Under the pieces are notes generated by a model that was given only the letters and a program-made list of their open reading frames with translations, did no database searches and was not told the origin of the DNA. From the IMG/VR virus record IMGVR_UViG_3300008055_000366, positions 1-24,655 of that record: DNA of 24,655 nucleotides; one strand, 5' to 3'. Of this stretch, positions 2 to 11,103 are shown one piece after another. This DNA is from a virus. Numbering within the stretch: the stretch's first letter is position 1; each line of letters starts with the position of its first letter. A program made the position numbers and the translations under genes.

Positions 2-2461
2 ACTGAAAACGCTCCGGCTGGTGCGCCTGCACCCGTGGATGCCGCTCTCAATGTAGCTGACAAAGCTGCCTCTGGGTCGCCTTCCGAAGAACGTCCTGCT
101 GCCCCGAGCAGTGGTCTTCTCGGTAAGATTGCTAAGGTTGAAGGTACTGCTAAAAACCCGAAGTCTTCGGCTGTTGGTAAGTATCAGATCATCGACAGCA
201 CCTTCGTCAACTATTTCCGCAAGCTTCACCCTGAGGAAGCGCGTGGCATGTCTAAGAGTGAGATCCTTTCCCTGCGCAAGTCGCCAAGGGCGTCGTCGCT
301 TTACGAGGAAATGGGTCCTGCCATTACCGCAGACAACAAGTCTACGCTGCGTAACATGAAGCTTCCGGTAAACGATGCGAACGTCTACGCTATGCACTTC
401 CTTGGTCCGGTGTACGGTCCCAAGGTCATCACGGCAGATGCGGGTACTCCTGTTGAGCGCATTGTTCCGGCCAACTTTATTAGCAGCAATCCGAGCGTCC
501 TGAAGGGCAAAACTGCCGGTCAGGTTCGCAATTGGCTTGATCGCAAGATGCTCGCCACTGGCGGTGTTGCGGCTGAAGGCTATGAGCGTGGCGGTTACGC
601 AACGGGCGGTGGCGAAGGTCTACTTCTTGGCGATGTTCGCGCTATGGAAGATGCTGAAAGGGATGAGCAGGATCAAGACAAGGTCGAAGGCATTGTCGAT
701 AAGGCTACTCAAGTCGCAGACAAGGCTGTTGGCGAACCTGTAAACTTGCTTCCGCCTAACCTTTACAAAACTGAAACGCCAAGTGCACCTCAAGCTGCTC
801 CGGCTGCTCCCGCTGTTGAACCGGCGAAAGGTGTCGCACCTTCAGAAAAGAAGGAAAGCATTGTTCAGCGCGTTCTCCATCCAAAGGGGCGCACTGACTA
901 TCTTTTACCGCTTCTAACTGGCGTTGCGGGTATGATTGGTGCACCGACGCGCAGTCCGTTCCAAGCTCTTGCTTATGGCGTGGGTGCAGGCGCTATGGGC
1001 CTCCAGAAGCAGCGTGAGTTTGATCTCCAGCGGCAGATGGTCGGTGTCCGTAGCGGTGAAGCTGCTGCCAAGCTCATGGGCAACGCTCTCCAACTTTATC
1101 GCCCGAACCCTGATCCAGCGACCCGTGTTCAGTACCCTTGGGTCGATACTTCTAATCGCCTGATCACTGATGCTCAGCGCAATAGTGCTATTATGGGCGT
1201 TGTAGGCACGATGGGTGCGGTGAACCCGCAGTTCTCTAATGAAGCCTTCAAGCGTATCTTGACGCCAGAAGGCGGTTATGAGGGTGCTGCTGAGACTACG
1301 CCTACTGGTCTTGCTGCTCCGGGCGCTCCACCTGCGGCACCTGCTGCTCCAACAGCAACCCGTACTCCGGCTGCTCCTAAGAATATTCCAGCGGGCGTGG
1401 GTGCTCGTGTTGCAGCAGGCGTTTATCGCATTGCGCAACCCACTACACCATTGGATTATACCGGTCTTTCAGACATGGATAATCCAAACAAGTTGCGTGC
1501 TTTCTACCAAGAAAATGCAGGTAGCTCTGATCCGCGCATTGCTGAACGCGCCAAGGGCTATCTGGATCGCGCTAACAAGATTGATACGGGTGAAATCCCC
1601 GTCACATTTGCTGTCACCAATCCTGATGGGACCACGTCAATGCAGGCGTGGAACGGTTGGCAGCAACGCAAATCAGACATTCAAAATTATCAAACTCGAC
1701 GCGAGTCCGCCCTCGCTGCGGCAAGCAAAACGAATGAGTGGTCTGAAACCTTCTCGCAGAACCGCGACAGGGTGCTTAACGTCTTTCGAAAGCTGGCTGC
1801 GGCCAGTGCGGACGCCAATCTCAACCGTGGTGCTAACTACAAAGCCAACTTCATTGGTTATGTGGAAAGCATCCCGGGGCTTAACGAAATTGTTCCTGAA
1901 AGCTTCCGTCGCTTCCAAGCTGCTGCTGATGAAGGCGATAAGTATGCCGCTGCGCAGCAGGTCATCGTTGATATTGAGAGCAAGCTGACACGCGCTCCTG
2001 CCGCTGGCCTTCAGATGGCTCAGCGCATGGCTCCAGGCATCACGACGGCTCCGTCTGCGCGCTATAGCTACATTGTTGATAACGTGGCTAAGATCCTTCA
2101 GGATAACGACTTCAATACGTTCTGGAATAACAACAAGAGCAACATTGAAGACGTTTCCCGTGCCCGTCAGGACTGGTATAACCAGAACCCGCTGTCGAAG
2201 TACATGCGTCGCGCTATCGATCAGACCCCGTTCTCACAGGGTATGCCGCAAGCCGACCGCCTCAGGCTCATCTCTAAGAAGCGCCAACAAGCTCCGATCT
2301 ATCAGAACGGACAGCTTCAAACGAAAAATGGTAAGCCTGTAACTGGCGATGTGATCGTGTACTATCCGACGGAGTCGCAAAAAGCTTCGCTTCCGAACGG
2401 CACGTACTACGTCTCCAACGGTAAGCTGGTCATCAAGGGTGCAAGGAAGGCTGCTCAGTAA
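2..2461 (+). CDS. Internal virion protein with N-terminal transglycosylase-like domain (5' partial)
   Basis: The reading frame is open from base 2, so the true start lies upstream of the window; a GTG at 35 is the first possible start codon, but the Ala/Pro-rich residues before it continue the same composition. Residues about 28-150 (counting from base 35) look like a lysozyme or lytic transglycosylase fold: AKVEGT with a candidate catalytic Glu near 36, then a SSAVGKYQIIDSTF block typical of SLT/lysozyme-like domains. Such a domain in a long virion protein suggests peptidoglycan opening during DNA ejection, as in podovirus internal proteins. The rest is Ala/Pro-rich linkers and helical stretches of unknown role. 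A short LATGGVAA...GGYATGGG motif lies near 549-620. The TAA stop overlaps the next ATG (TAATG), so the two virion genes are coupled. The exact virion role is inferred. Confidence 0.75.
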   Translation, partial: TENAPAGAPAPVDAALNVADKAASGSPSEERPAAPSSGLLGKIAKVEGTAKNPKSSAVGKYQIIDSTFVNYFRKLHPEEARGMSKSEILSLRKSPRASSLYEEMGPAITADNKSTLRNMKLPVNDANVYAMHFLGPVYGPKVITADAGTPVERIVPANFISSNPSVLKGKTAGQVRNWLDRKMLATGGVAAEGYERGGYATGGGEGLLLGDVRAMEDAERDEQDQDKVEGIVDKATQVADKAVGEPVNLLPPNLYKTETPSAPQAAPAAPAVEPAKGVAPSEKKESIVQRVLHPKGRTDYLLPLLTGVAGMIGAPTRSPFQALAYGVGAGAMGLQKQREFDLQRQMVGVRSGEAAAKLMGNALQLYRPNPDPATRVQYPWVDTSNRLITDAQRNSAIMGVVGTMGAVNPQFSNEAFKRILTPEGGYEGAAETTPTGLAAPGAPPAAPAAPTATRTPAAPKNIPAGVGARVAAGVYRIAQPTTPLDYTGLSDMDNPNKLRAFYQENAGSSDPRIAERAKGYLDRANKIDTGEIPVTFAVTNPDGTTSMQAWNGWQQRKSDIQNYQTRRESALAAASKTNEWSETFSQNRDRVLNVFRKLAAASADANLNRGANYKANFIGYVESIPGLNEIVPESFRRFQAAADEGDKYAAAQQVIVDIESKLTRAPAAGLQMAQRMAPGITTAPSARYSYIVDNVAKILQDNDFNTFWNNNKSNIEDVSRARQDWYNQNPLSKYMRRAIDQTPFSQGMPQADRLRLISKKRQQAPIYQNGQLQTKNGKPVTGDVIVYYPTESQKASLPNGTYYVSNGKLVIKGARKAAQ

Positions 2462-5037
2462 TGGCAAATCCCCCTCAGCAAAAAGGTCTTGCTCCCAAAC
2501 CTAAGGCTCCGGCCCCAGCGACGCGTCTTGAGTATCCCAAGACCGACTGGGCAAATATGGGTTGGGGCGAGGTTGGTTCGCGAGCCCTTAAAAACATGCC
2601 TTCCAGCGCTTGGACGGCTATTAAAGGTCTCAATCCGGTAAATATTCTTACCGGCACTGGAGGATTGATAGTTGGCGCTTTGCGTAAAGCCGGAATGCGC
2701 GATGATCCAAACCGCGATCCAGCGGTCATTGCTGCGCGCAAGGGCGGAGATGCTTGGAGCAAATATTACCAGTCATTTGGTCCTAAGACTATGTCTGCTG
2801 ATAAATATCGCCAGCAAGTTCTTACTCAGGTTCAAAATCGAATTCGCGCCGGTCAAGAGTCTGAAAAGATGTTTGTGGACATGTATAACATGTACGGTAA
2901 GCGGTATGGTAGCATGGCTGGCTTCAAGGAAGCTCTTGCCACTGATCCTATTTCCGTAATCATGGACTTTAATACCGCTACACGGGCTGGTGGAGCAGGG
3001 TTGCGTTTGGGTGCCAAAGGCTCTGGAATGGGCGCTAAAGTCGCAGCCGGGGCTGAGAAATATGTAACTGCCCCGTTATCCAAAGCGACTGATCCTTTTA
3101 ACATTGCAATTACCGGGACCAAGGCTGCTGCAAAGCTGGCCGGTAAGGGTGTTGGTCTCGTTAAAAAGGTTCCCGAAAGCAGGATTTTTGCTAACGGGCA
3201 GTTCACGCCTGCTGCTCAAGCAGCGCTTAAAGGCGCGTTCCCCAATCTAACCAAGGCTGACTTGAGCAATCCGACTTTGCAGCGCGCTATGATTGAGACC
3301 ATGTCATCGCGTGGCATCACTCCGGCTGCTGCTCGTCAGGCGCTTGCTACGCATCATAACATCACGATCCCAACCAGTCGTTTGACCGGTAAGGCCCCAC
3401 GTCGTGCGCCTACTGCTCAGCAGACAAAGCAAGTTACGAAGGAAGCGCAAACTGGCATTCAAGGTGCTGTGGCGCAGAACTTCCCACACAAGAACGAAGA
3501 CATTGGTATTCGTCTTAAGGAAGCCGAAACTAACGCCCGTGATGTTGTCGATCAGCAATATACGGCTGCGCGTCAAATCGCTGGCGAGTTTGATCCTGGT
3601 GCTGCCAAGATCATTGAGGACAACATCAACGCTGCAATTCAGCAAGCTTATCCTCAGTATAAAAGCGCTAATTTGCCAGCAAACACCTTCCCGCAGGGCA
3701 TGGAAGTCATCGATGACTTCCGCACCAATCTGCCCAAGGAAGCTGGTGAGCATGGTCTTACCATGGGGCTATTGGACGATAAGCGTCACGGTATCCTTAA
3801 GCGCTATCGCGGTGACGGTGCTGCGGCGGGTCGTGACCGGCACCTGCTTGGCGTCATTCAAGACGGCTTCGATAAGGGCATTGAAGCGGCCATTCAGCAG
3901 GGCATGTTTAAGGGCGATAGCGCCGATCTTTTGAAGACTTGGGGTCAGGCTCGTGCAAGCAATGCGGCTTACCGCAATAACTTCAGCGGCACGGATCGCT
4001 TTGGCAACCCGGATCTTGTTAGCCAAGCACTCGCTATGGCCGATAAGGGTAATTTTGATAAGGCTGGGAACTTCCTGATCAATGGGATGTTTGATCCCCA
4101 GACTGGCGCGATGATCCCTGATGCCCCTCGCGTTTGGGAGCAGATCCACGCGGTCGATCCAACCCTTGGCGCAACTGTCGATAGCGGTGTGCGCCGGATG
4201 GTTGCCGATCAGGTGGCGACCGGTAAAATTGACGTGCCTACAGCCAATACGACCATGTCGGCCTTTTCAGCCAACGGCAAGTCGGCCTTTACGCCTGAGC
4301 AACAGGCGACAGTTCGCCAAGTTGGTGAGCTTAAGGGAACTCTGGACACCACTCCTTCGGGCAAGGAAAGCCCGACGTTGGATACTGCTAAACGCATGGC
4401 GGGTTCGGCTGGGACAGGTGCGATAGTTGGTTACGGTCTAAGCGGCGCCACTGGTCTACCTCCGCAAGTAACTGCACCTACTGTAGGCGCGATACAGGCT
4501 GTGGGCCGTGAAGCTTATGACATCGCTCGCGGTCCTAGCGTTGAACTGAGCGGTGTTGTTCCGGCCCAGCGTGCTCGCCCATATGAAGCAGCTATTCCAG
4601 CTAAGACGCCTCTTGGTGTCGAAGTTCCTGCGCAGGTCGGTGTACGCGAGGAACAGTCTCAGGAAGAGGCCAAGCGTCAATCTGTTGCTGCTCAGAATGT
4701 AGGTCCCACGACGCAGATTGCGCCTCCAGGGCAGCCTACAGGAGACGTGGAAGAAACCATGTCTTTTGAGCAACCTGTGGCCGCCCAGCCTGCTGGAATT
4801 GATGAGAATGATCTTGTCATCGGTGACATTGGTAAGCCGCAACGCGCCACTGGCGGTCGTGTTGCTTACGCTACTGGCGGTAAAATTAAGAAGGCTGGGC
4901 ATGACCACCTTGTTCAACGTCTTATGAACAAAGCCAAACATGCAAAAAGACAGACTGATAGTACCACAAAGCCGCTGCTAAATGTTGATGATGCTGCTAT
5001 TGTCCGGGCCTTGTCAGTTGCCCAACGTGGGGTTTGA
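2461..5037 (+). CDS. Large phage structural protein, probably internal virion protein
   Basis: This 858-residue protein starts at an ATG overlapping the upstream TAA by one base. I see no catalytic motif. The N-terminal third is basic and mixed helical, the middle is long and Gln/Ala-rich, and positions about 640-770 are Gly/Pro/Ala-rich and probably flexible. The last 64 residues (795-858) form a distinct module: RATGGRVAYATGGK, then a Lys/His-rich helix (HDHLVQRLMNKAKHAK), then TKPLLNVDDAAIVRAL. I recall similar tails at the ends of virion proteins in phages and prophages of alphaproteobacteria, but have not checked this. Size, position between a transglycosylase-bearing virion protein and tail-fibre genes, and lack of a signal peptide fit an ejection or tail-associated structural protein. 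The function is inferred from context only. Confidence 0.65.
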   Translation: MANPPQQKGLAPKPKAPAPATRLEYPKTDWANMGWGEVGSRALKNMPSSAWTAIKGLNPVNILTGTGGLIVGALRKAGMRDDPNRDPAVIAARKGGDAWSKYYQSFGPKTMSADKYRQQVLTQVQNRIRAGQESEKMFVDMYNMYGKRYGSMAGFKEALATDPISVIMDFNTATRAGGAGLRLGAKGSGMGAKVAAGAEKYVTAPLSKATDPFNIAITGTKAAAKLAGKGVGLVKKVPESRIFANGQFTPAAQAALKGAFPNLTKADLSNPTLQRAMIETMSSRGITPAAARQALATHHNITIPTSRLTGKAPRRAPTAQQTKQVTKEAQTGIQGAVAQNFPHKNEDIGIRLKEAETNARDVVDQQYTAARQIAGEFDPGAAKIIEDNINAAIQQAYPQYKSANLPANTFPQGMEVIDDFRTNLPKEAGEHGLTMGLLDDKRHGILKRYRGDGAAAGRDRHLLGVIQDGFDKGIEAAIQQGMFKGDSADLLKTWGQARASNAAYRNNFSGTDRFGNPDLVSQALAMADKGNFDKAGNFLINGMFDPQTGAMIPDAPRVWEQIHAVDPTLGATVDSGVRRMVADQVATGKIDVPTANTTMSAFSANGKSAFTPEQQATVRQVGELKGTLDTTPSGKESPTLDTAKRMAGSAGTGAIVGYGLSGATGLPPQVTAPTVGAIQAVGREAYDIARGPSVELSGVVPAQRARPYEAAIPAKTPLGVEVPAQVGVREEQSQEEAKRQSVAAQNVGPTTQIAPPGQPTGDVEETMSFEQPVAAQPAGIDENDLVIGDIGKPQRATGGRVAYATGGKIKKAGHDHLVQRLMNKAKHAKRQTDSTTKPLLNVDDAAIVRALSVAQRGV

Positions 5038-5047
5038 GGAGGTTTGA

Positions 5048-5917
5048 ATGACCAGTTCGTATACGACTAATAAGAACCTCGAAAAGCCCGCAAACGGCGA
5101 TTACGTTAATACGTGGTCGAGCCCGGTTAATAACGACTGGGACGCGATTGACGCTGCCTTTGGCGGCACAACGGCAATCAATGCTGTTGGCGCGTCAGGC
5201 ACGGTTGTGCTCACATCTACCCAGTATCGTCCTCCAAACCTGAGCATTACGGGGGCACTCACAGCCAACGTCAATTATCAGATCCCCGCAGGTGTAGGTG
5301 GTATCTGGTCCGTCTATAACGGCACTAGCGGCTCGTTTACGATCACCATTTCGTCGGGCGGCGCTGGTACTAGCCAGCTTGTGACACAAGGTACGCGCTT
5401 GATGGTCGTCAGCGATGGCACCAATATCTCTATCGCAGACACCACTTTGAATGCTGCAAATGCTAACACGTTCACTGGCAAGCAAACCTTTGCAGGCACG
5501 ACTACTAACTTGGCTGAGGTCCTTACCAACGCTGCTGAAGTCATCACCACTTCAGCAACGGCGGCCACAGGGACTGTCAATTACGACATCACCACCCAGT
5601 CGGTGCTCTATTACACGAATAACGCTTCAGGTAACTGGACGGTCAATCTCAGAGCCAACGGGTCGAATACCCTCGCCAGCGTTCTCAGCACTGGCCAGTG
5701 CCTAACTGTCGCTTTTCTAGCCAAGCAGGGTTCCCCTGCATATTATAACAGCGCTGTTCAGGTAGATGGGACTACGACAGGTGTTACAACGCTATGGCAA
5801 GGCGGTGTGGCTCCCGTTTCTGGCAATATTAACGGTGTTGACGTGTACACTTACACCGTCATTAAAACGGGTAGCTCGACTTACACCGTGTTAGCCACAA
5901 GAAACCAGTTTGCCTAA
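5048..5917 (+). CDS. Tail-fibre-like structural protein
   Basis: A 289-residue protein preceded by a perfect ribosome-binding site (AGGAGG at 5037-5042, five bases before ATG). The N-terminus (SSYTTNKNLEKPANGDYVNTW followed by NNDWDAIDAAFGG) is typical of phage tail or baseplate-fibre proteins. The body is Thr/Gly/Asn/Ser-rich with alternating hydrophobic residues, which suggests beta-structure, and the C-terminus repeats a YTYTVIKTGSSTYTVLA pattern seen in fibre tips. There is no signal peptide or membrane segment. It sits 10 bases after the large virion protein and 10 before another fibre-like gene, so it is probably part of the host-recognition apparatus. The N-terminal part is the likely virion attachment region. 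Whether it is a fibre, a spike or an adaptor cannot be told from the sequence. Confidence 0.7.
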   Translation: MTSSYTTNKNLEKPANGDYVNTWSSPVNNDWDAIDAAFGGTTAINAVGASGTVVLTSTQYRPPNLSITGALTANVNYQIPAGVGGIWSVYNGTSGSFTITISSGGAGTSQLVTQGTRLMVVSDGTNISIADTTLNAANANTFTGKQTFAGTTTNLAEVLTNAAEVITTSATAATGTVNYDITTQSVLYYTNNASGNWTVNLRANGSNTLASVLSTGQCLTVAFLAKQGSPAYYNSAVQVDGTTTGVTTLWQGGVAPVSGNINGVDVYTYTVIKTGSSTYTVLATRNQFA

Positions 5918-5927
5918 GGGTTAGACG

Positions 5928-6620
5928 ATGCCGTCTCTTATCACGCTAGGAGCCGTTAGCGGGCGCGGATTTGGGATTACAAACCCAGTCCTTCCGCCTG
6001 TTTTGACGACGACAACGTTTACGTCGAGCGGTAACTGGGTCGCGCCTTTGTCTGTCGCAAATGTCGCAAGCATTTATGGATATGGGCAGAACGGAAGTCC
6101 CGCCCCTACTTCGCTCAATACACAATATTGGACTTTTGACTGGCCCGCAGCACGATCTAATCCTCCATACGCTCAATGGGGTGATCTTTACGGCGCAGCT
6201 ACTTCGGCTCGAGCCGCAATAGCGGCTACTATTGGCGGTTCGGGTCCATCCAGTGTCCTCACTTCATTACGTTATTACATTGGCACGGGAAGCACTTGGG
6301 ATCCAGCCGATGAAAATTATTCAGATCTTTCTGGATACACTGTAACTGGAGTTGATGCGGTTGGGGTGGGCAATGGATCACCTCAGACAAGCGGTAACAT
6401 TATATATCCACCCGGATATAATTCTTGGGTTTTTACGATTTATTTAACCGCTCCCGGCTTCCTCGGTGCGTCTTCTACTGCCCTTGGAAAGACTTTCCCC
6501 GGTGGCAACGGGGGCCCACCCTCTACAACGACGTTTAGCAATGTCGCGGTTACTCCGGGCGTAAGTTATCCGATCTCGGTTGCCCCTGGGGGCTCAGTAA
6601 CTTTGCAATACTACGTGTGA
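5928..6620 (+). CDS. Putative tail-fibre or receptor-binding protein
   Basis: A 230-residue protein starting at ATG 5928 after a weak AAGGG site. The N-terminus (MPSLITLGAVSGRGFG) and the following TTTFTSSGNWVAP block resemble the short, aromatic and glycine-rich tail-tip proteins common after fibre genes in phages of Gram-negative bacteria. In those, the SSGNWVAP segment opens a Gly-rich domain. Here the C-terminal half is Gly/Pro/Ser/Thr-rich and ends in VTPGVSYPISVAPGGSVTLQYYV, a pattern found in such fibre domains. It follows the preceding fibre-like gene by 10 bases and is probably co-translated with it. No enzyme motif is visible. Receptor binding is an inference from composition and place in the gene order. 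Confidence 0.6.
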   Translation: MPSLITLGAVSGRGFGITNPVLPPVLTTTTFTSSGNWVAPLSVANVASIYGYGQNGSPAPTSLNTQYWTFDWPAARSNPPYAQWGDLYGAATSARAAIAATIGGSGPSSVLTSLRYYIGTGSTWDPADENYSDLSGYTVTGVDAVGVGNGSPQTSGNIIYPPGYNSWVFTIYLTAPGFLGASSTALGKTFPGGNGGPPSTTTFSNVAVTPGVSYPISVAPGGSVTLQYYV

Positions 6621-6628
6621 GGCAACGC

Positions 6629-6787
6629 ATGGCCACTGCAAAAGAAATTGACGCCCGTTTGAACACCCATGAAGCGGTCTGTGCTGAGCGTTGGAAAGAG
6701 ACGATCATCCGCATTAAGCGACTGGAAGCGATCCTCATAGCTTGCGCTGGTGGCGTAATTGCTATGCTTGTCAACCATTTGGCCTAG
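6629..6787 (+). CDS. Small C-terminal-anchored membrane protein, XhlA-like
   Basis: A 52-residue gene read directly from the sequence. ATG at 6629 lies eight bases after the previous stop, and TAG is at 6785-6787. The protein begins MATAKEIDARLNTHEAVCAERW, an amphipathic helix, followed by a basic stretch (IIRIKRLEA) and one hydrophobic segment at about residues 34-51. This helix-plus-one-membrane-segment plan, and the EARLNTHE.VCAERW-like start, resemble the small haemolysin XhlA-type or holin-accessory proteins of many phages. It sits between the fibre genes and the secreted-protein pair, some way before the endolysin, so a lysis role is plausible but not shown. Another possibility is a virion-associated membrane peptide. 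Confidence 0.6.
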   Translation: MATAKEIDARLNTHEAVCAERWKETIIRIKRLEAILIACAGGVIAMLVNHLA

Positions 6788-6791
6788 CACC

Positions 6792-7886
6792 ATGGTCAAT
6801 AAGCGCTACCTCGCCCTTGTCGCGGTAGGTTGGTCTAGTATCGTGCTCGCCCAGAGCACGAACTACGTCTACGACACGACGACCACCAGCACTGCGACGA
6901 ACACGAACGTCAACACCAATACGTCCACCAGCACGGCGACATCGACAAACACGAACAACAACGTGAACACGTCCACCAGCGTGAACACGAACAACAACAT
7001 TCAGTCTGGCACCGCGACGAACATCAACCAGAACACGATTACGTCAACCAACACCAACAACAATGTGAACTCATCGACCAGCACCGCAACCAGCAGCAAT
7101 ACGAACTATAACGTGCAGTCTGGTACGGCCACCAACATCAATCAGAACACGTCCACGAACACAAACATCAACACGGACGTTTCGACCAGCACGGTCAATC
7201 AGACGGTGAACAGCACGTCGGCCAGCACGATCAACAGCACGAACTTGAACACCAACCGGAACGTGAACGACAGCACGTCTACATCAACGAACATCAACAC
7301 GAACCGGAACTTCAACGACAGCGTGGCGACCAGCACTTCAACGAACCTGAACACGAACGTATCGACCAGCGATAGCACCTCGACGAATATCAACACTAAC
7401 GTCAACCAAAGCACATCCACTGCGGTCAATACCAACGTCAATCAGAATACGTCTGAAAGCACAAGCACGAGCACCAACGTAAACCAGAACACGAACGTCT
7501 CTGACAGCAAGTCGGTGAGCGTGTCGGACAGCACCCAGAGCGTGACGCAGAAAATCACCTCTCCGCCGCCTTCAGCCATCGCACCAAGCATGATGAGCTA
7601 TAGCCAAGACCTCTGCACCACAGGCGTCTCTGGCGCTGTGCAGACGCAGATCCTTGGCATCTCTGGGGGCAAGACTATCCGCGACAAGAACTGCGAAGCC
7701 CTGAAGTTATCCAAGACGCTTTACGATATGGGTATGCGGGTGGCTGCGGTGTCGTTGCTCTGTCAGGACAGCCGCGTATTCGACGCCATGCGGATGGCAG
7801 GGACGCCGTGTCCGTTTGAGGGTAAGATCGGCAAGGAGGCTTCAGCGGCATGGGAAGAAAAGTCCAAGTCCTCCTCGCGGCGCTGA
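6792..7886 (+). CDS. Secreted Asn/Thr/Ser-repeat protein with a four-cysteine C-terminal domain
   Basis: The start at 6792 is chosen because it gives a clean signal peptide (MVNKRYLALVAVGWSSIVLA, cleavage near residue 20); the frame is open further upstream but adds only unlikely residues. Residues about 29-250 are almost entirely Asn, Thr and Ser with Val/Ile every few positions, often alternating (TNTNVNTNTSTS). Two longer near-repeats, about 51-84 and 85-122, each end in QSGTATNINQNT. Alternating polar residues of this kind suggest a beta-rich fibre or amyloid-like solenoid. Residues about 256-345 form a compact domain with Cys at 275, 301, 324 and 340, and GISGGKT and LCQDSRVFDAM motifs; I recall this domain in phages of alphaproteobacteria without a known role. 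It overlaps the next gene by 37 bases. Its function is unknown; surface display or adhesion is only a guess. Confidence 0.65.
   Translation: MVNKRYLALVAVGWSSIVLAQSTNYVYDTTTTSTATNTNVNTNTSTSTATSTNTNNNVNTSTSVNTNNNIQSGTATNINQNTITSTNTNNNVNSSTSTATSSNTNYNVQSGTATNINQNTSTNTNINTDVSTSTVNQTVNSTSASTINSTNLNTNRNVNDSTSTSTNINTNRNFNDSVATSTSTNLNTNVSTSDSTSTNINTNVNQSTSTAVNTNVNQNTSESTSTSTNVNQNTNVSDSKSVSVSDSTQSVTQKITSPPPSAIAPSMMSYSQDLCTTGVSGAVQTQILGISGGKTIRDKNCEALKLSKTLYDMGMRVAAVSLLCQDSRVFDAMRMAGTPCPFEGKIGKEASAAWEEKSKSSSRR
6876..7550 (+). repeat. Degenerate tandem repeat encoding Asn/Thr/Ser-rich tract
   Basis: This stretch is built from short AAC/ACG/AGC-type codon units. Its clearest long-period copies encode QSGTATNINQNT, near 7002-7037 and 7116-7151. 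The copies differ at third positions (for example GCGACG against GCCACC) while the protein sequence is kept, so the repeat is maintained at the protein level rather than being a recent DNA expansion. Confidence 0.7.
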
Positions 7887-9469
7887 TCGCGTGGCCTGCT
7901 GCGGCGCAGGAGTATAACCCGACGCTGATCCCGGCTGAGCTTCTTGGCTCTCCTCAGACGATGACGCCTCTCAATGGTGGCGATGACAGCACGCGGCTCG
8001 TGCAGTTTTCCTTTCCGTTCAGCTATTACGGGCAGACCTTCACATCGGCATGGGTGTCATCGAATGGGTTCGTGTCATTCCAGAGTGCGGCGCATCTGTG
8101 TTGCGATGGAGAACCGATGGCACAGGCGCAGCGCAATACGATTTACGGCTACTGGACCGATCTCGTTAGTAACCCAAATCCCTATTACCGCATGACAGAC
8201 ACATCTGCGCTTTTTGGATGGTACGGCTCTAAGGAATATGGGACGAACAACTCCATCACCTTTGAGATCAACTTGTCGGCCACTGGCAGCATCCAGTTTA
8301 ACTATGGCGCACTGGGAAACAGTTATCATACGGTATCGGCTGGCCTTACTGGCCCAACATCGACTGATAATATCCAGCTTTTCTATGGCACCAACGTGCA
8401 AAACCTGTCGTTTCAATCTGGTCTGCTAACACCAAGCACACCAGAGCCGGAACCTGTTCCTGTGGTGCCTGTACCTGATGCGGTTAACCCTGCACCAGAC
8501 GTAACACCAGATCCTACAGAAGTTTTGCAAAACGAACCTGAGCAGGAAGCCGTGGTCGAGCAGGTTGTGGCAGAAGAAGAGATTGCAGTTGAAGAGGCTG
8601 TGTCAGAAGAGGACATAGTTTCCGACGACACAGTTGCGCAAGAAGAGGTTGACGAAACGCAGGCTGAAGACGCGAACGACCCGCCTTTAGACCCAGCGGA
8701 ACTGGCAGCATTGGCCGCCGGAGATACGCAAACAGAAGACACAAACGATGAGCCTATCGCCTTGGCAGAGGCTCTAGCGACTGAGGAAACGTCGAACGCA
8801 CCGACTGAGGCAGAGGTTGCCAACGCAGTGGACGCGGTGGCCGTTGAGGCCGAGACGGCAGAAGCTGCCAGAATTGAGCAGCAGGCCAAGCCGGACCAAG
8901 CGGCAACTGTATCTGGGGAGGCTCAACGCGACCGCAACGCGGACTTCTTCCAGAAAGAGGCTATTGAAGACGCCGACACGTTTTCACGCGAAACCGTGAT
9001 GCAAGCGTCGCTTCAGAACGTAGCCTTCTTGGCTCAGGCTGACGCACAATACGCACAGCAATTTGGCGAGCAGTCCACGACGGACACCGTCGCTGAGACC
9101 TACTCCATCCAACCGGCAGAGGGGCCGACCTTCGCTCCTGCACCGACGACGGGCATGGGGGATATGACCACACCTGTGGGCCAAGCGCAGCAAATGGAAC
9201 TGCTCGGAATGCAAGGCGACTTGTCGGCTGGTCCAGTTGTCGATGTGGGAGACGTAAATGATGGTGACAAGGAAACAATGTCCCAGCTTGCGGCCATTCC
9301 GGCTGGCTACAGCGCATATACGCAAGCCCGCATCCCTGATGCGCCGTTCTACCAGCCGCGTGATATATACAAGGGCCGTCGCATTCCTGACGCGAATATG
9401 GCATTATATCGCATGATGAGTGGACAGGACGCACGCTGGCAAGAGATGGTGGACGCGCAATATGAGTGA
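7850..9469 (+). CDS. Secreted protein with nidogen-like beta domain and acidic linker
   Basis: A 539-residue protein whose ATG lies inside the 3' end of the previous gene, with AAGGAGG at 7833-7839 ten bases upstream. Residues 1-19 (MGRKVQVLLAALIAWPAAA) are a signal peptide. Residues about 21-185 look like an extracellular beta-sandwich of nidogen (NIDO-like) type: FPFSYYGQTFTSAWVSSNGFVSF, then TIYGYWTDL, SITFEINLS and a final AGLTGPTSTDNIQLFYG strand. A double cysteine (LCCDGE) is present. From about 197 to 375 the chain is Pro/Glu then Glu/Ala/Val-rich, strongly acidic and probably unstructured. The C-terminus ends in IPDAPFYQPRDIYKGRRIPD and a short helix; I recall this ending in marine and alphaproteobacterial phages. 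It is coupled to the upstream repeat protein, which suggests a joint extracytoplasmic role that is unknown. Confidence 0.6.
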   Translation: MGRKVQVLLAALIAWPAAAQEYNPTLIPAELLGSPQTMTPLNGGDDSTRLVQFSFPFSYYGQTFTSAWVSSNGFVSFQSAAHLCCDGEPMAQAQRNTIYGYWTDLVSNPNPYYRMTDTSALFGWYGSKEYGTNNSITFEINLSATGSIQFNYGALGNSYHTVSAGLTGPTSTDNIQLFYGTNVQNLSFQSGLLTPSTPEPEPVPVVPVPDAVNPAPDVTPDPTEVLQNEPEQEAVVEQVVAEEEIAVEEAVSEEDIVSDDTVAQEEVDETQAEDANDPPLDPAELAALAAGDTQTEDTNDEPIALAEALATEETSNAPTEAEVANAVDAVAVEAETAEAARIEQQAKPDQAATVSGEAQRDRNADFFQKEAIEDADTFSRETVMQASLQNVAFLAQADAQYAQQFGEQSTTDTVAETYSIQPAEGPTFAPAPTTGMGDMTTPVGQAQQMELLGMQGDLSAGPVVDVGDVNDGDKETMSQLAAIPAGYSAYTQARIPDAPFYQPRDIYKGRRIPDANMALYRMMSGQDARWQEMVDAQYE

Positions 9470-9980
9470 CGAAGATGAAAAATCTGAAGGAACCGCTATC
9501 GAAATTGGCGGGATTAAGTTTGCTGGCGGTAAGCTATTTGCTGTTCTCGCTGCTCTTTCTAGTGCTGGCGGTGCCCTTTGGGGCGGCTTTGAGGTTTACC
9601 AGCAATTCCTGACGATGAAGGAAGTGACGGAAACCTTTGCTTCTATGGGTGATGAGTTCACTCAGATGAAGGAGCAGCAGGCCAGTAACGAGCGCATGAT
9701 CAAGATGAACTTGGAGACGACGAAGTACCTGTCGGACAACCTTGCATCACTCTCCAGCAGTGTTGGTAGCAGCGTCATGAGCGCCCGTCAGAGCGTCGAT
9801 GCGGTCACTGCACGGACCCAGGTGTCTGAGAGGGAGACATTGCAATCTCAGCGTGCTATTATACAAGAGCTACGTGCGCAGGACGTTGAACAGCAGCGCC
9901 GTGTGAAAGAACTTGAGAAGCAGCTTGATGACAAGATCACCAAGACGCTTGAGAACCCGCTAAGCAAGAGGGATAACTGA
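9462..9980 (+). CDS. Membrane-anchored coiled-coil protein
   Basis: The start at 9462 (MSDEDEKSEG) overlaps the previous stop by eight bases and has a GGTGGA site about nine bases upstream; a longer GTG start at 9420 is less likely. The 172-residue product has a short acidic cytoplasmic-type N-terminus, one hydrophobic segment at about 25-47 (LFAVLAALSSAGGALWGGF), then a long charged helical region. Residues about 120-165 (QSQRAIIQELRAQDVEQQ, then RRVKELEKQL) have strong coiled-coil heptads. The IKFAGGKLFAVLAAL entry to the membrane segment is common in phage membrane proteins next to lysis genes. It could be a spanin-like or holin-associated factor, but there is no lipobox or clear Rz/Rz1 arrangement. 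It is coupled to the next gene by TGATG. Confidence 0.6.
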   Translation: MSDEDEKSEGTAIEIGGIKFAGGKLFAVLAALSSAGGALWGGFEVYQQFLTMKEVTETFASMGDEFTQMKEQQASNERMIKMNLETTKYLSDNLASLSSSVGSSVMSARQSVDAVTARTQVSERETLQSQRAIIQELRAQDVEQQRRVKELEKQLDDKITKTLENPLSKRDN

Positions 9981-10495
9981 TGAGTTTCTGGGATAAGTTC
10001 GAAAGCAAGCAGGACGGCATCGAGGACACGATTGAGTTTACGATCCGTATGGCTGTCGTCACGCTGGCGATGGTCATCCTCGTTGTGGTGGCTGCAATGG
10101 TCGCCGGGATGTTCGTTCCAAACGACGTTGTGGACAGCGACAAGGTGTTCGAGATCATTGGCCCCGCCTTCAACACCATCGTCGGCGCGTTTGTCGGTCT
10201 GCTTGGCGGCCTCTCGCTAAACGCCAACGCTCGCGACACTAAGCCCGAGGAACCGGCTCCAGTCGAGCCTGAGCCCGCTCCTGAGCCGGAACCCGCTCCA
10301 GAGCCTATGGCTCCGCCGCCTGCCCCTATGGTAGCGCCCGAGCCGGAACTCGAACTGACCGAGCCTGTCGAAGACGATGATGACGATGACATGGCCCCGT
10401 GGGAAAAGTACCGCAACGACCTACGCTATGACGCCAATGGCGATGGCGTGGTTGATGAAGCGGACTTCCCTGACTGGAGGAACCCAAACAAATGA
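9980..10495 (+). CDS. Holin-like membrane protein with Pro/Glu linker and EF-hand-like tail
   Basis: A 171-residue protein with two hydrophobic segments, about 25-46 (AVVTLAMVILVVVAAMVAG) and 57-80 (the VGAFVGLLGG region), the hairpin plan of class II holins. After residue 85 comes a Pro/Glu-rich linker (EPEPAPEPEPAPEPM), then an acidic run DDDDDD. The last 21 residues begin DANGDGVVDEAD, which fits the 12-residue EF-hand or dockerin calcium loop with Asp at positions 1, 5 and 12 and Gly at 6. ATG overlaps the preceding TGA, and its own stop overlaps the endolysin ATG (ATGA), so it is translated with the endolysin. The holin role is inferred from position and topology. The calcium-site tail is unusual for a holin. 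Confidence 0.6.
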   Translation: MSFWDKFESKQDGIEDTIEFTIRMAVVTLAMVILVVVAAMVAGMFVPNDVVDSDKVFEIIGPAFNTIVGAFVGLLGGLSLNANARDTKPEEPAPVEPEPAPEPEPAPEPMAPPPAPMVAPEPELELTEPVEDDDDDDMAPWEKYRNDLRYDANGDGVVDEADFPDWRNPNK

Positions 10496-11103
10496 GCCTC
10501 GTAAACCTACAGAAAAAGATCGGAGTAACGGCTGATGGTGCGTTTGGTCCAGGCACGCTTAAGGCGGCTGCCGCTTACTATAAGCTATCACCTAATCGCG
10601 CTGCGCATTTCTTTGCTCAAACTGCGCATGAAAGTGGCAACTTCAAAGCGTTCAGCGAAAACCTGAACTACGGATGGAAGGGTCTGCGCGGCATCTTTGG
10701 CAAGTACTTTCCGACTGAAGGCATGGCTAAGAACTATGAGCGCCAGCCGCAGCGCATCGCCAACCGCGTCTATGCCAATCGCATGGGCAATGGCGACGAA
10801 GCGTCAGGTGATGGCTGGCTGTACAGAGGCCGAGGCAGCCTCCAATTGACGGGCAAATTTAATTTCAAAGCGTTCTCGGACTACATCAATCGCCCGGACG
10901 TGATGACGAACCCGGATCTGGTAGCTACTGAACTGGCGTTTGAAAGCGCCCTGTGGTTCTTCGACAAGAACAAACTCTGGGGCATTTGCGATCAGGGCAT
11001 CAACGATGCTGCCATTCTTGCGCTCACAAAGCGTATCAATGGCGGCACGCACGGTCTCGATGACCGTAAAGCAAAGACCAAGAAATACGCTTCTTGGCTC
11101 TAA
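10492..11103 (+). CDS. Endolysin, glycoside hydrolase family 19 (chitinase/lysozyme-like)
   Basis: A 203-residue peptidoglycan hydrolase. The first 25 residues (LQKKIGVTADGAFGPGTLKAA) look like the end of a peptidoglycan-binding repeat, which leads straight into the GH19 catalytic domain. That domain shows FAQTAHESGNF with catalytic Glu 47, a LNYGWKGLRGIFGKYFP segment, YRGRGSLQLTGKFNF near 110-125, and a C-terminal ALTKRINGGTHGLDDR block. The family cleaves beta-1,4 glycosidic bonds; phage members degrade the host murein at lysis. There is no signal peptide or membrane segment, so it needs a holin, and its start overlaps the holin-like gene by four bases. The length is normal for single-domain phage GH19 endolysins. 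Confidence 0.92.
   Translation: MSLVNLQKKIGVTADGAFGPGTLKAAAAYYKLSPNRAAHFFAQTAHESGNFKAFSENLNYGWKGLRGIFGKYFPTEGMAKNYERQPQRIANRVYANRMGNGDEASGDGWLYRGRGSLQLTGKFNFKAFSDYINRPDVMTNPDLVATELAFESALWFFDKNKLWGICDQGINDAAILALTKRINGGTHGLDDRKAKTKKYASWL

Follow-up and report, generated by a model that had tools for sequence, protein, structure and literature searches.

A candidate envelope module of two exported-type proteins and a predicted membrane-anchored coiled-coil protein, coupled to lysis genes and carried mostly by marine phages

Main finding

The analysis of a 24,655-base virus fragment (referred to below as the window) revealed three overlapping genes, P1, P2 and P3, followed directly by a holin-like gene and an endolysin gene. 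We tentatively interpret the three products as a lysis-linked exported envelope complex that would take the part of spanins while having no lipoprotein, a reading that we favour while holding it at somewhat below an even chance. An earlier note on this DNA had described only P1 and P2; the present analysis adds P3, the operon with the holin-like and endolysin genes, a two-residue phase in the P1 repeat and a domain swap in P2. The trio has so far been uncharacterised: the records of cultured phages list its members as hypothetical proteins or under weak-domain names, one partner is misnamed lysozyme, and no description of the trio was found in the literature on pelagiphage lysis and export.

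Gene organization in the window

P1 (6792–7886, plus strand) begins with an ATG at 6792, ends with the stop at 7886 and encodes 364 amino acids, while P2 (7850–9469, plus strand; ATG at 7850, stop at 9469) encodes 539. The two genes share 37 bases (7850–7886), and the ribosome site of P2, AAGGAGG (7833–7839, plus strand), is situated inside P1, 10 nt 5′ of the P2 start; the earlier note had given the same gene coordinates, overlap and ribosome site. P3 (9462–9980, plus strand) encodes a protein with an N-terminal membrane helix and a coiled coil that ends in ...NPLSKRDN, and its ATG sits in the 3′ end of P2 (ATGAGTGA, 9462–9469). Base 9980 is common to the end of P3 and the start of P4 (9980–10495, plus strand), which encodes two membrane helices and an EF-hand-like DANGDGVVDEAD, and the end of P4 overlaps at 10492–10495 with the start of a GH19-type endolysin gene (10492–11103, plus strand; phrog_181, E 2e-60; Pfam PF00182 above cut-off). 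The five genes of the window are thus joined by consecutive overlaps of 37, 8, 1 and 4 nt, and the same five-gene order recurs among the close relatives found.

P4 appears holin-like only by its layout, its PHROG holin match having an E value of 0.12. Like CRP-207 gp72 (locus L094, 3870–4226), it is a small membrane protein of two helices that bears an EF-hand-like motif (DANGDGVVDEAD in P4, DEDGDGIITDDE in gp72), which is unusual for a holin-like protein. Directly upstream of P1, a 52-aa protein (6629–6787, plus strand) composed of a coil and a C-terminal membrane helix had no match in Pfam and resembles XhlA in layout only.

Signal peptide, repeat and four-cysteine domain of P1

P1 is composed of a putative signal peptide (about residues 1–21), a repeat (about 25–250), an SPPPSAIAPS linker and a four-cysteine domain (about 270–355). 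Its N terminus reads MVNKRYLALVAVGWSSIVLAQ/STN..., and both P1 and P2 carry the n-region, hydrophobic core and small-x-small cleavage site expected of Sec-exported proteins. The signal peptides noticed earlier on both proteins recur in relatives, signal-peptide-like starts being identified in 104 of 111 P1 homologues, fragments included, and in 68 of 75 P2 proteins by a simple hydropathy/AxA rule, not SignalP.

The repeat spans 226 residues (6864–7541, plus strand). Asn, Thr and Ser account for 72% of residues 25–250, the remainder being mostly V, Q, I, A and D, so that the richness described in the earlier note stands and its wording "almost only" was slightly strong. Along the repeat, [Asn/Ser] and [Thr/Val/Ile] alternate strictly and stay in register, with 79% Asn/Ser at one parity and 72% Thr/Val/Ile at the other, and the phase is held over all 226 residues. 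Self-identity at lag 2 is 0.41 versus 0.19 in shuffles (z 8.9), identity at odd lags is reduced (z about −5 to −6; lag 1, z −5.9), and phase slips occur at 0.95 per 100 residues versus 4.2 in shuffles. The lag-2 z score exceeds 3 in 36 of 39 distinct P1 homologues, and the repeat length, taken as the span from a fixed N-terminal motif to the PPPSA linker, varies from 127 to 271 residues and is odd in 33 of 34 proteins. Such a phase is what a two-faced beta structure would require, and these lag and phase statistics point to the sidedness of beta structure and not to random low complexity. In the main repeat families of the window, the distance between the starts of DNA copies is a multiple of six bases, and slippage in hexanucleotide units, as an alternative to selection, could also yield the even-length rule or help to keep the phase.

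The four-cysteine domain with its linker (7554–7883, plus strand) is hyperconserved and constitutes the hallmark of the family. The four cysteines noted earlier after the repeat (C275, C301, C324 and C340) are invariant across 68 aligned relatives, in which 40 of about 114 columns of the domain are invariant despite widely differing phages. The window P1 matches phrog_20531 (E 6e-16), as does the P1 of HTVC033P; this is a sequence cluster without recorded function or partner, unlike P1 with the partners described here. PDB sequence searches with P1 and with the repeat returned no match. In the AlphaFold2 model of the full protein, the repeat has a pLDDT of about 35 and the four-cysteine domain is helical with about 66–76 at best, and is therefore too weak for a fold search.

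In short P1 proteins the repeat is absent, and a C-terminal membrane helix is present in 21 of 33 versus 2 of 77 long P1 proteins; the repeat and the helix may therefore be alternative ways of placing the four-cysteine domain. Loci with short P1 genes contain two or three extra small proteins between P2 and P3 (L107, 10303–11760; L106; L105; L075), with signal-peptide-like starts and lengths of about 170, 128 and 145 aa.

Exchangeable head of P2

P2 consists of a predicted signal peptide, a beta-sandwich (about residues 20–200), a long acidic low-complexity part and a conserved basic/aromatic C-terminal tail (IPDAPFYQPRDIYKGRRIPDANMALYRMM..DARWQEMVDAQYE). The beta domain and acidic part attributed to this protein in the earlier note find support in a confident AlphaFold2 beta-sandwich over about residues 20–200 (pLDDT mostly 80–97) and in a D+E content of 16% versus 4% K+R. 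The label "nidogen" is weakly supported: it reflects a sub-threshold resemblance, since the window P2 has no Pfam match and its best relative reaches 19.1 bits against PF06119 (NIDO), for which the gathering cut-off is 25 bits. The P2 of one relative resembles PF02018 (CBM_4_9) at 15.7 bits, also sub-threshold, and the P2 proteins of cultured relatives carry the annotation "carbohydrate binding"; weak similarity to either domain occurs in the heads of some relatives, and the window P2 matches neither. Pfam and PHROGs gave no family above cut-off for P2 or P3, and a PDB sequence search with the P2 head returned no match. The head was modelled confidently, but its matches to PDB structures in the Foldseek/VIA comparison were weak, with no fold match at E ≤ 0.001 and a best Z of 5.3; nidogen was absent among the matches listed, although the head may still have that fold.

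The heads of closely related P2 proteins are exchanged wholesale. Those of the window P2 and of the P2 at locus L006 are unrelated, while the middle and tail share 63–76% identity and the P1 proteins 85–92%. The exchange covers the stretch from the signal peptide to the acidic part, and the rest of P2 is kept. One NIDO-like head type is found in the window and at loci L002, L003 and L007, and another beta-type head with an NGGFxxGxxxW motif at L006, L008, L009 and L011; more distant P2 proteins combine other heads with tandem CxxDPLYDxxCPGYxxAYxxQQ repeats. This pattern would be typical of ligand-binding domains under diversifying pressure.

Topology and annotation of P3

By the positive-inside rule, P3 is predicted to be N-in/C-out in 52 of 58 distinct proteins. 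Its coiled coil was recognised from sequence, and the P3 at locus L058 also has coiled-coil-type Pfam matches. P3 therewith appears to have the plan of an i-spanin, with an N-in membrane helix and a predicted periplasmic coiled coil. The P3 profile matched T7 18.5 weakly (E 0.021) and lambda Rz not at all. Two deposited "lysozymes", CRP-207 gp73 (L094, 3292–3873) and CRP-810 gp51 (L092, 9165–9587), are P3 homologues, composed of a membrane helix and a coiled coil ending in NPL/NPLGR, with no lysozyme motif visible. In pelagiphages (L117–L119, L128) the coiled coil of P3 includes runs rich in His, such as HSHDMPKHSHEVGEHQHDEHGHT, possibly for metal binding.

Distribution and co-occurrence

At least 600 viral contigs carry the four-cysteine domain of P1 (found in 599 of the 600 pattern-matched stretches among the matches listed), as do 13 records of cultured or environmental phages, including pelagiphages, roseophages and the Achromobacter N4-like phage JWAlpha; further carriers are Achromobacter phage JWDelta and Agrobacterium phage JP1. 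The carriers comprise a Kyanoviridae member, T7-like phages, an N4-like phage and roseophages, and the trio occurs mostly in marine phages, including those of SAR11 and roseobacters; the roseophages CRP-207 and CRP-810 carry it in full. Across species genomes of bacteria and archaea, about 85,000 in number, the domain was detected at only 13 loci, all in MAGs/bins or draft genomes and read here as phage contigs, so that it appears to be a viral domain at this level of similarity. One Rhodobacteraceae bin, Water_Bin34, contained four different P1 contigs (L101, L103, L106, L107) and is therefore probably mixed with phage contigs.

Among the 75 distinct P1 loci whose downstream flank is 1.5 kb or longer, a secreted-type partner is located 3′ of P1 in 74, the sole exception being JWAlpha; a P2 profile match lies beside P1 in 65, and a secreted, mostly acidic protein in nine of the other ten. 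The homologues thus occur together almost throughout, as expected from the coupling of P1 and P2 proposed in the earlier note. P3 was present within 5 kb after P1 in 53 of the 56 loci with a downstream flank of 5 kb or more; the term "pair" used in that note accordingly holds for the coupling and is too narrow as a limit of two genes, because P3 is a third partner. A protein of 153–158 aa with a C-terminal membrane helix, belonging to phrog_32327 (no recorded function), recurs beside P2/P3 (L058, 11069–11533; L053; L052; L067; L049), and gp46 of the pelagiphage HTVC115P (L091, 13249–13698), annotated as a toxin-activating lysine-acyltransferase, is situated 4–5 kb downstream of the trio.

Lysis-gene neighbourhood

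An endolysin, holin-like or lipase gene was located within 6 kb in 53 of the 71 P1 loci that have 5 kb or more of downstream sequence, a count that includes a lipase and holins named by layout only and for which the P3 homologues CRP-207 gp73 and CRP-810 gp51 were left out of the queries. Of these 53 loci, 37 are of the GH19/P4 type of the window; outside this type, a lysis-type gene was found in 16 of 34 loci with enough flank, using a limited seed set. In Mosig, the gene directly before P1 encodes a PF11351 protein (GTA_holin_3TM, above cut-off), and the trio of the T7-like phage S28-C10 has tail-fibre/holin-like genes on one side and the terminase on the other. No lysis gene was recognised within 6 kb in HTVC202P and Baldr, and in JWAlpha P1 stands alone, in a region that its annotation compares with the N4 early region. 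The single T4-type late promoter candidate before the Mosig P1 (TATAAATA at 1061) is at chance level.

Thirteen loci have a class 3 lipase (PF01764) after P3, often followed in turn by a holin-like gene and a lysozyme (L107, 12708–13412; L066, 6505–7254; L077, L079, L065, L082, L047, L084, L105, L106, L075 and L072, among others). The two members scanned matched PF01764 at E 3.5e-23 and 5.6e-26 (82–92 bits), no signal peptide was seen, and the protein is possibly a phage lipase of the lysis cluster.

The large virion-type proteins encoded upstream in the window (35–5034) had no counterpart at E 1e-3 in relatives sharing the trio and the lysis genes, a comparison in which the stored flank is short for some relatives; the module therefore appears to travel without structural genes. 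The role in virion release suggested in the earlier note fits the fused lysis operon of the window, and the lysis context in the window group could also be a case of hitch-hiking.

Proposed function and alternatives

We propose that P1, P2 and P3 would assemble into a complex dedicated to the envelope, whose synthesis in the window group probably falls late, alongside that of the lysis proteins. P1 and P2 would be exported by Sec, and P3, anchored by the N-terminal helix, would sit in the inner membrane and extend its coiled coil into the periplasm. P1 would form a beta-structured rod with two chemically different faces, whose conserved disulphide-type domain would dock to a conserved partner, while the P2 head would bind an envelope ligand, most likely a glycan, and the P2 tail would join the complex. 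The assembly would most likely span or load the periplasm during infection and help to open or detach the outer envelope once the holin and endolysin act.

The exchange of P2 heads also lends itself to another reading, namely an exported surface fibre or adhesin for superinfection exclusion or host-surface masking, in which P1 would be a stalk and the exchangeable P2 head would occupy a glycan receptor to which further phages could then not attach. The "carbohydrate binding" annotations and the sub-threshold PF02018 resemblance point the same way, as does the JWAlpha P1 outside a lysis setting. The cell-surface layer and the blocking of other phages considered in the earlier note draw indirect support from the swappable binding-type head. 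However, the usual coupling to holin-like and endolysin genes would bring exclusion proteins in late, neither an anchor in the outer membrane nor a route of export across it was seen, and P2 head type did not correlate with the type of the neighbouring fibre-like genes (5048–6617). On balance we regard this role as unlikely.

Alternating beta-type repeats are typical of fibre shafts, and tail-fibre-like genes adjoin P1 in the window (5048–6620) and in S28-C10, so P1 could be conceived as a tail or head fibre of the virion with a beta-repeat shaft and P2 as its adhesin, the N-terminal helices then not being signal peptides. In a viral library, the P2-like head fold weakly matched one annotated tail fibre protein (rank 6, E 0.03). 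This reading is nevertheless improbable: signal-type N termini are kept in nearly all P1 and P2 proteins, the module is conserved where the upstream large proteins have no detectable counterpart, the modules of Mosig and HTVC202P are away from structural genes or beside packaging genes only, and the module is common to phages as different as a Kyanoviridae member, T7-like and N4-like phages and roseophages. Virion-fibre and superinfection-exclusion roles thus rank below the lysis-linked complex as less supported. Least probable is a lysis-timing sensor, in which a disulphide-bonded P1/P2 would sense the envelope state or a superinfecting phage and signal via P3 to the holin, in line with the holin-like gene coupling, the predicted periplasmic location, the ligand-type head and the cysteine domain, but with no similarity to T4 RI found and with a 230-residue rod that would be superfluous.

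Spanins and the opening of the outer envelope

About 13% of surveyed genomes, many of them marine, were reported to be without a spanin, and how such phages open the outer membrane was posed as a question (PMC6139136). Spanins use a lipoprotein partner (PMC6139136). A lipobox scan that found both positive controls, T7 18.7 and lambda Rz1, detected, with all frames covered, no ORF with a lipobox in the window or the complete HTVC202P, and none in the Mosig stretch; HTVC023P (50 of 61 kb) had one antisense candidate and S28-C10 three, all antisense. The pelagiphages HTVC010P and HTVC011P, which are without P1, contained no lipobox ORF either, and spanin absence therefore does not track with the module, so that the argument from spanin absence is permissive and not decisive for the trio. 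Baldr has an unannotated 54-aa ORF with a good lipobox (L125, 37246, minus strand; IPFLFLGC), possibly a small lipoprotein.

P1 and P2 themselves have no lipobox and no evident outer-membrane anchor, and the trio does not present the arrangement that identifies an o-spanin, a lipobox gene next to or inside the i-spanin gene; by definition, therefore, the trio does not count as a spanin. Inner-membrane proteins of type I have been regarded as possible non-classical spanins (PMC6139136), and the short P1 proteins with a C-terminal helix have this type I layout. They do not match a unimolecular spanin, which combines an N-terminal lipobox with a C-terminal membrane helix: the C-terminal helix is present, but the N termini end in signal-peptidase-I-type sites.

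The lysis-linked reading can be extended to the proposal that the trio represents a third type of machinery by which phages open the outer envelope, lipoprotein-free and widespread in spanin-less marine phages, in which an exported beta-rod and a swappable envelope-binding head would be tied to an inner-membrane coiled coil; this wider proposal we consider doubtful. An envelope-opening role would address the question raised for spanin-less phages in PMC6139136, and a masking fibre would mean that superinfection control of this form is abundant in the ocean. In both cases, the analysis provides a defined set of genes, a boundary for the domain swap and a rule for the repeat.

Comparison with known systems

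The P1 repeat shares alternating Thr-x-Thr with Asn/Ser and even-length repeats with TxT-type beta-solenoids (ice-nucleation and antifreeze proteins) and curli-like amyloids, but it is unrelated to them in sequence and was modelled by AlphaFold2 without confident structure. Under the lysis-timing reading, P1/P2 would signal in the manner of T4 RI, which unlike them is a single small protein. Like the Mu gp25 releasin and DUF2730 proteins (PMC9239132), P3 has a small N-terminal helix and a coiled coil near the endolysin, and the S28-C10 P3 is annotated as DUF2730. In contrast to the N-out/C-in topology of DUF2730 (PMC9239132), P3 is predicted to be N-in; among the P3 proteins scanned no PF10805 match was obtained at E ≤ 1, and a releasin was rejected.

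The closest comparison is with two-component spanins such as lambda Rz/Rz1 and T7 18.5/18.7 (PMC6139136), with which the trio shares the lysis-gene neighbourhood, overlapping genes and cysteines in the periplasmic part. Unlike them, the trio has no lipoprotein and comprises instead two large secreted-type proteins, a swappable ligand head and a long beta-type repeat. To our knowledge, a swappable binding head is a trait of no known spanin. P3 nonetheless appears to follow the i-spanin plan, and in the T7-like genome of S28-C10 the trio occupies the same slot before the terminase as 18.5/18.7 in T7.
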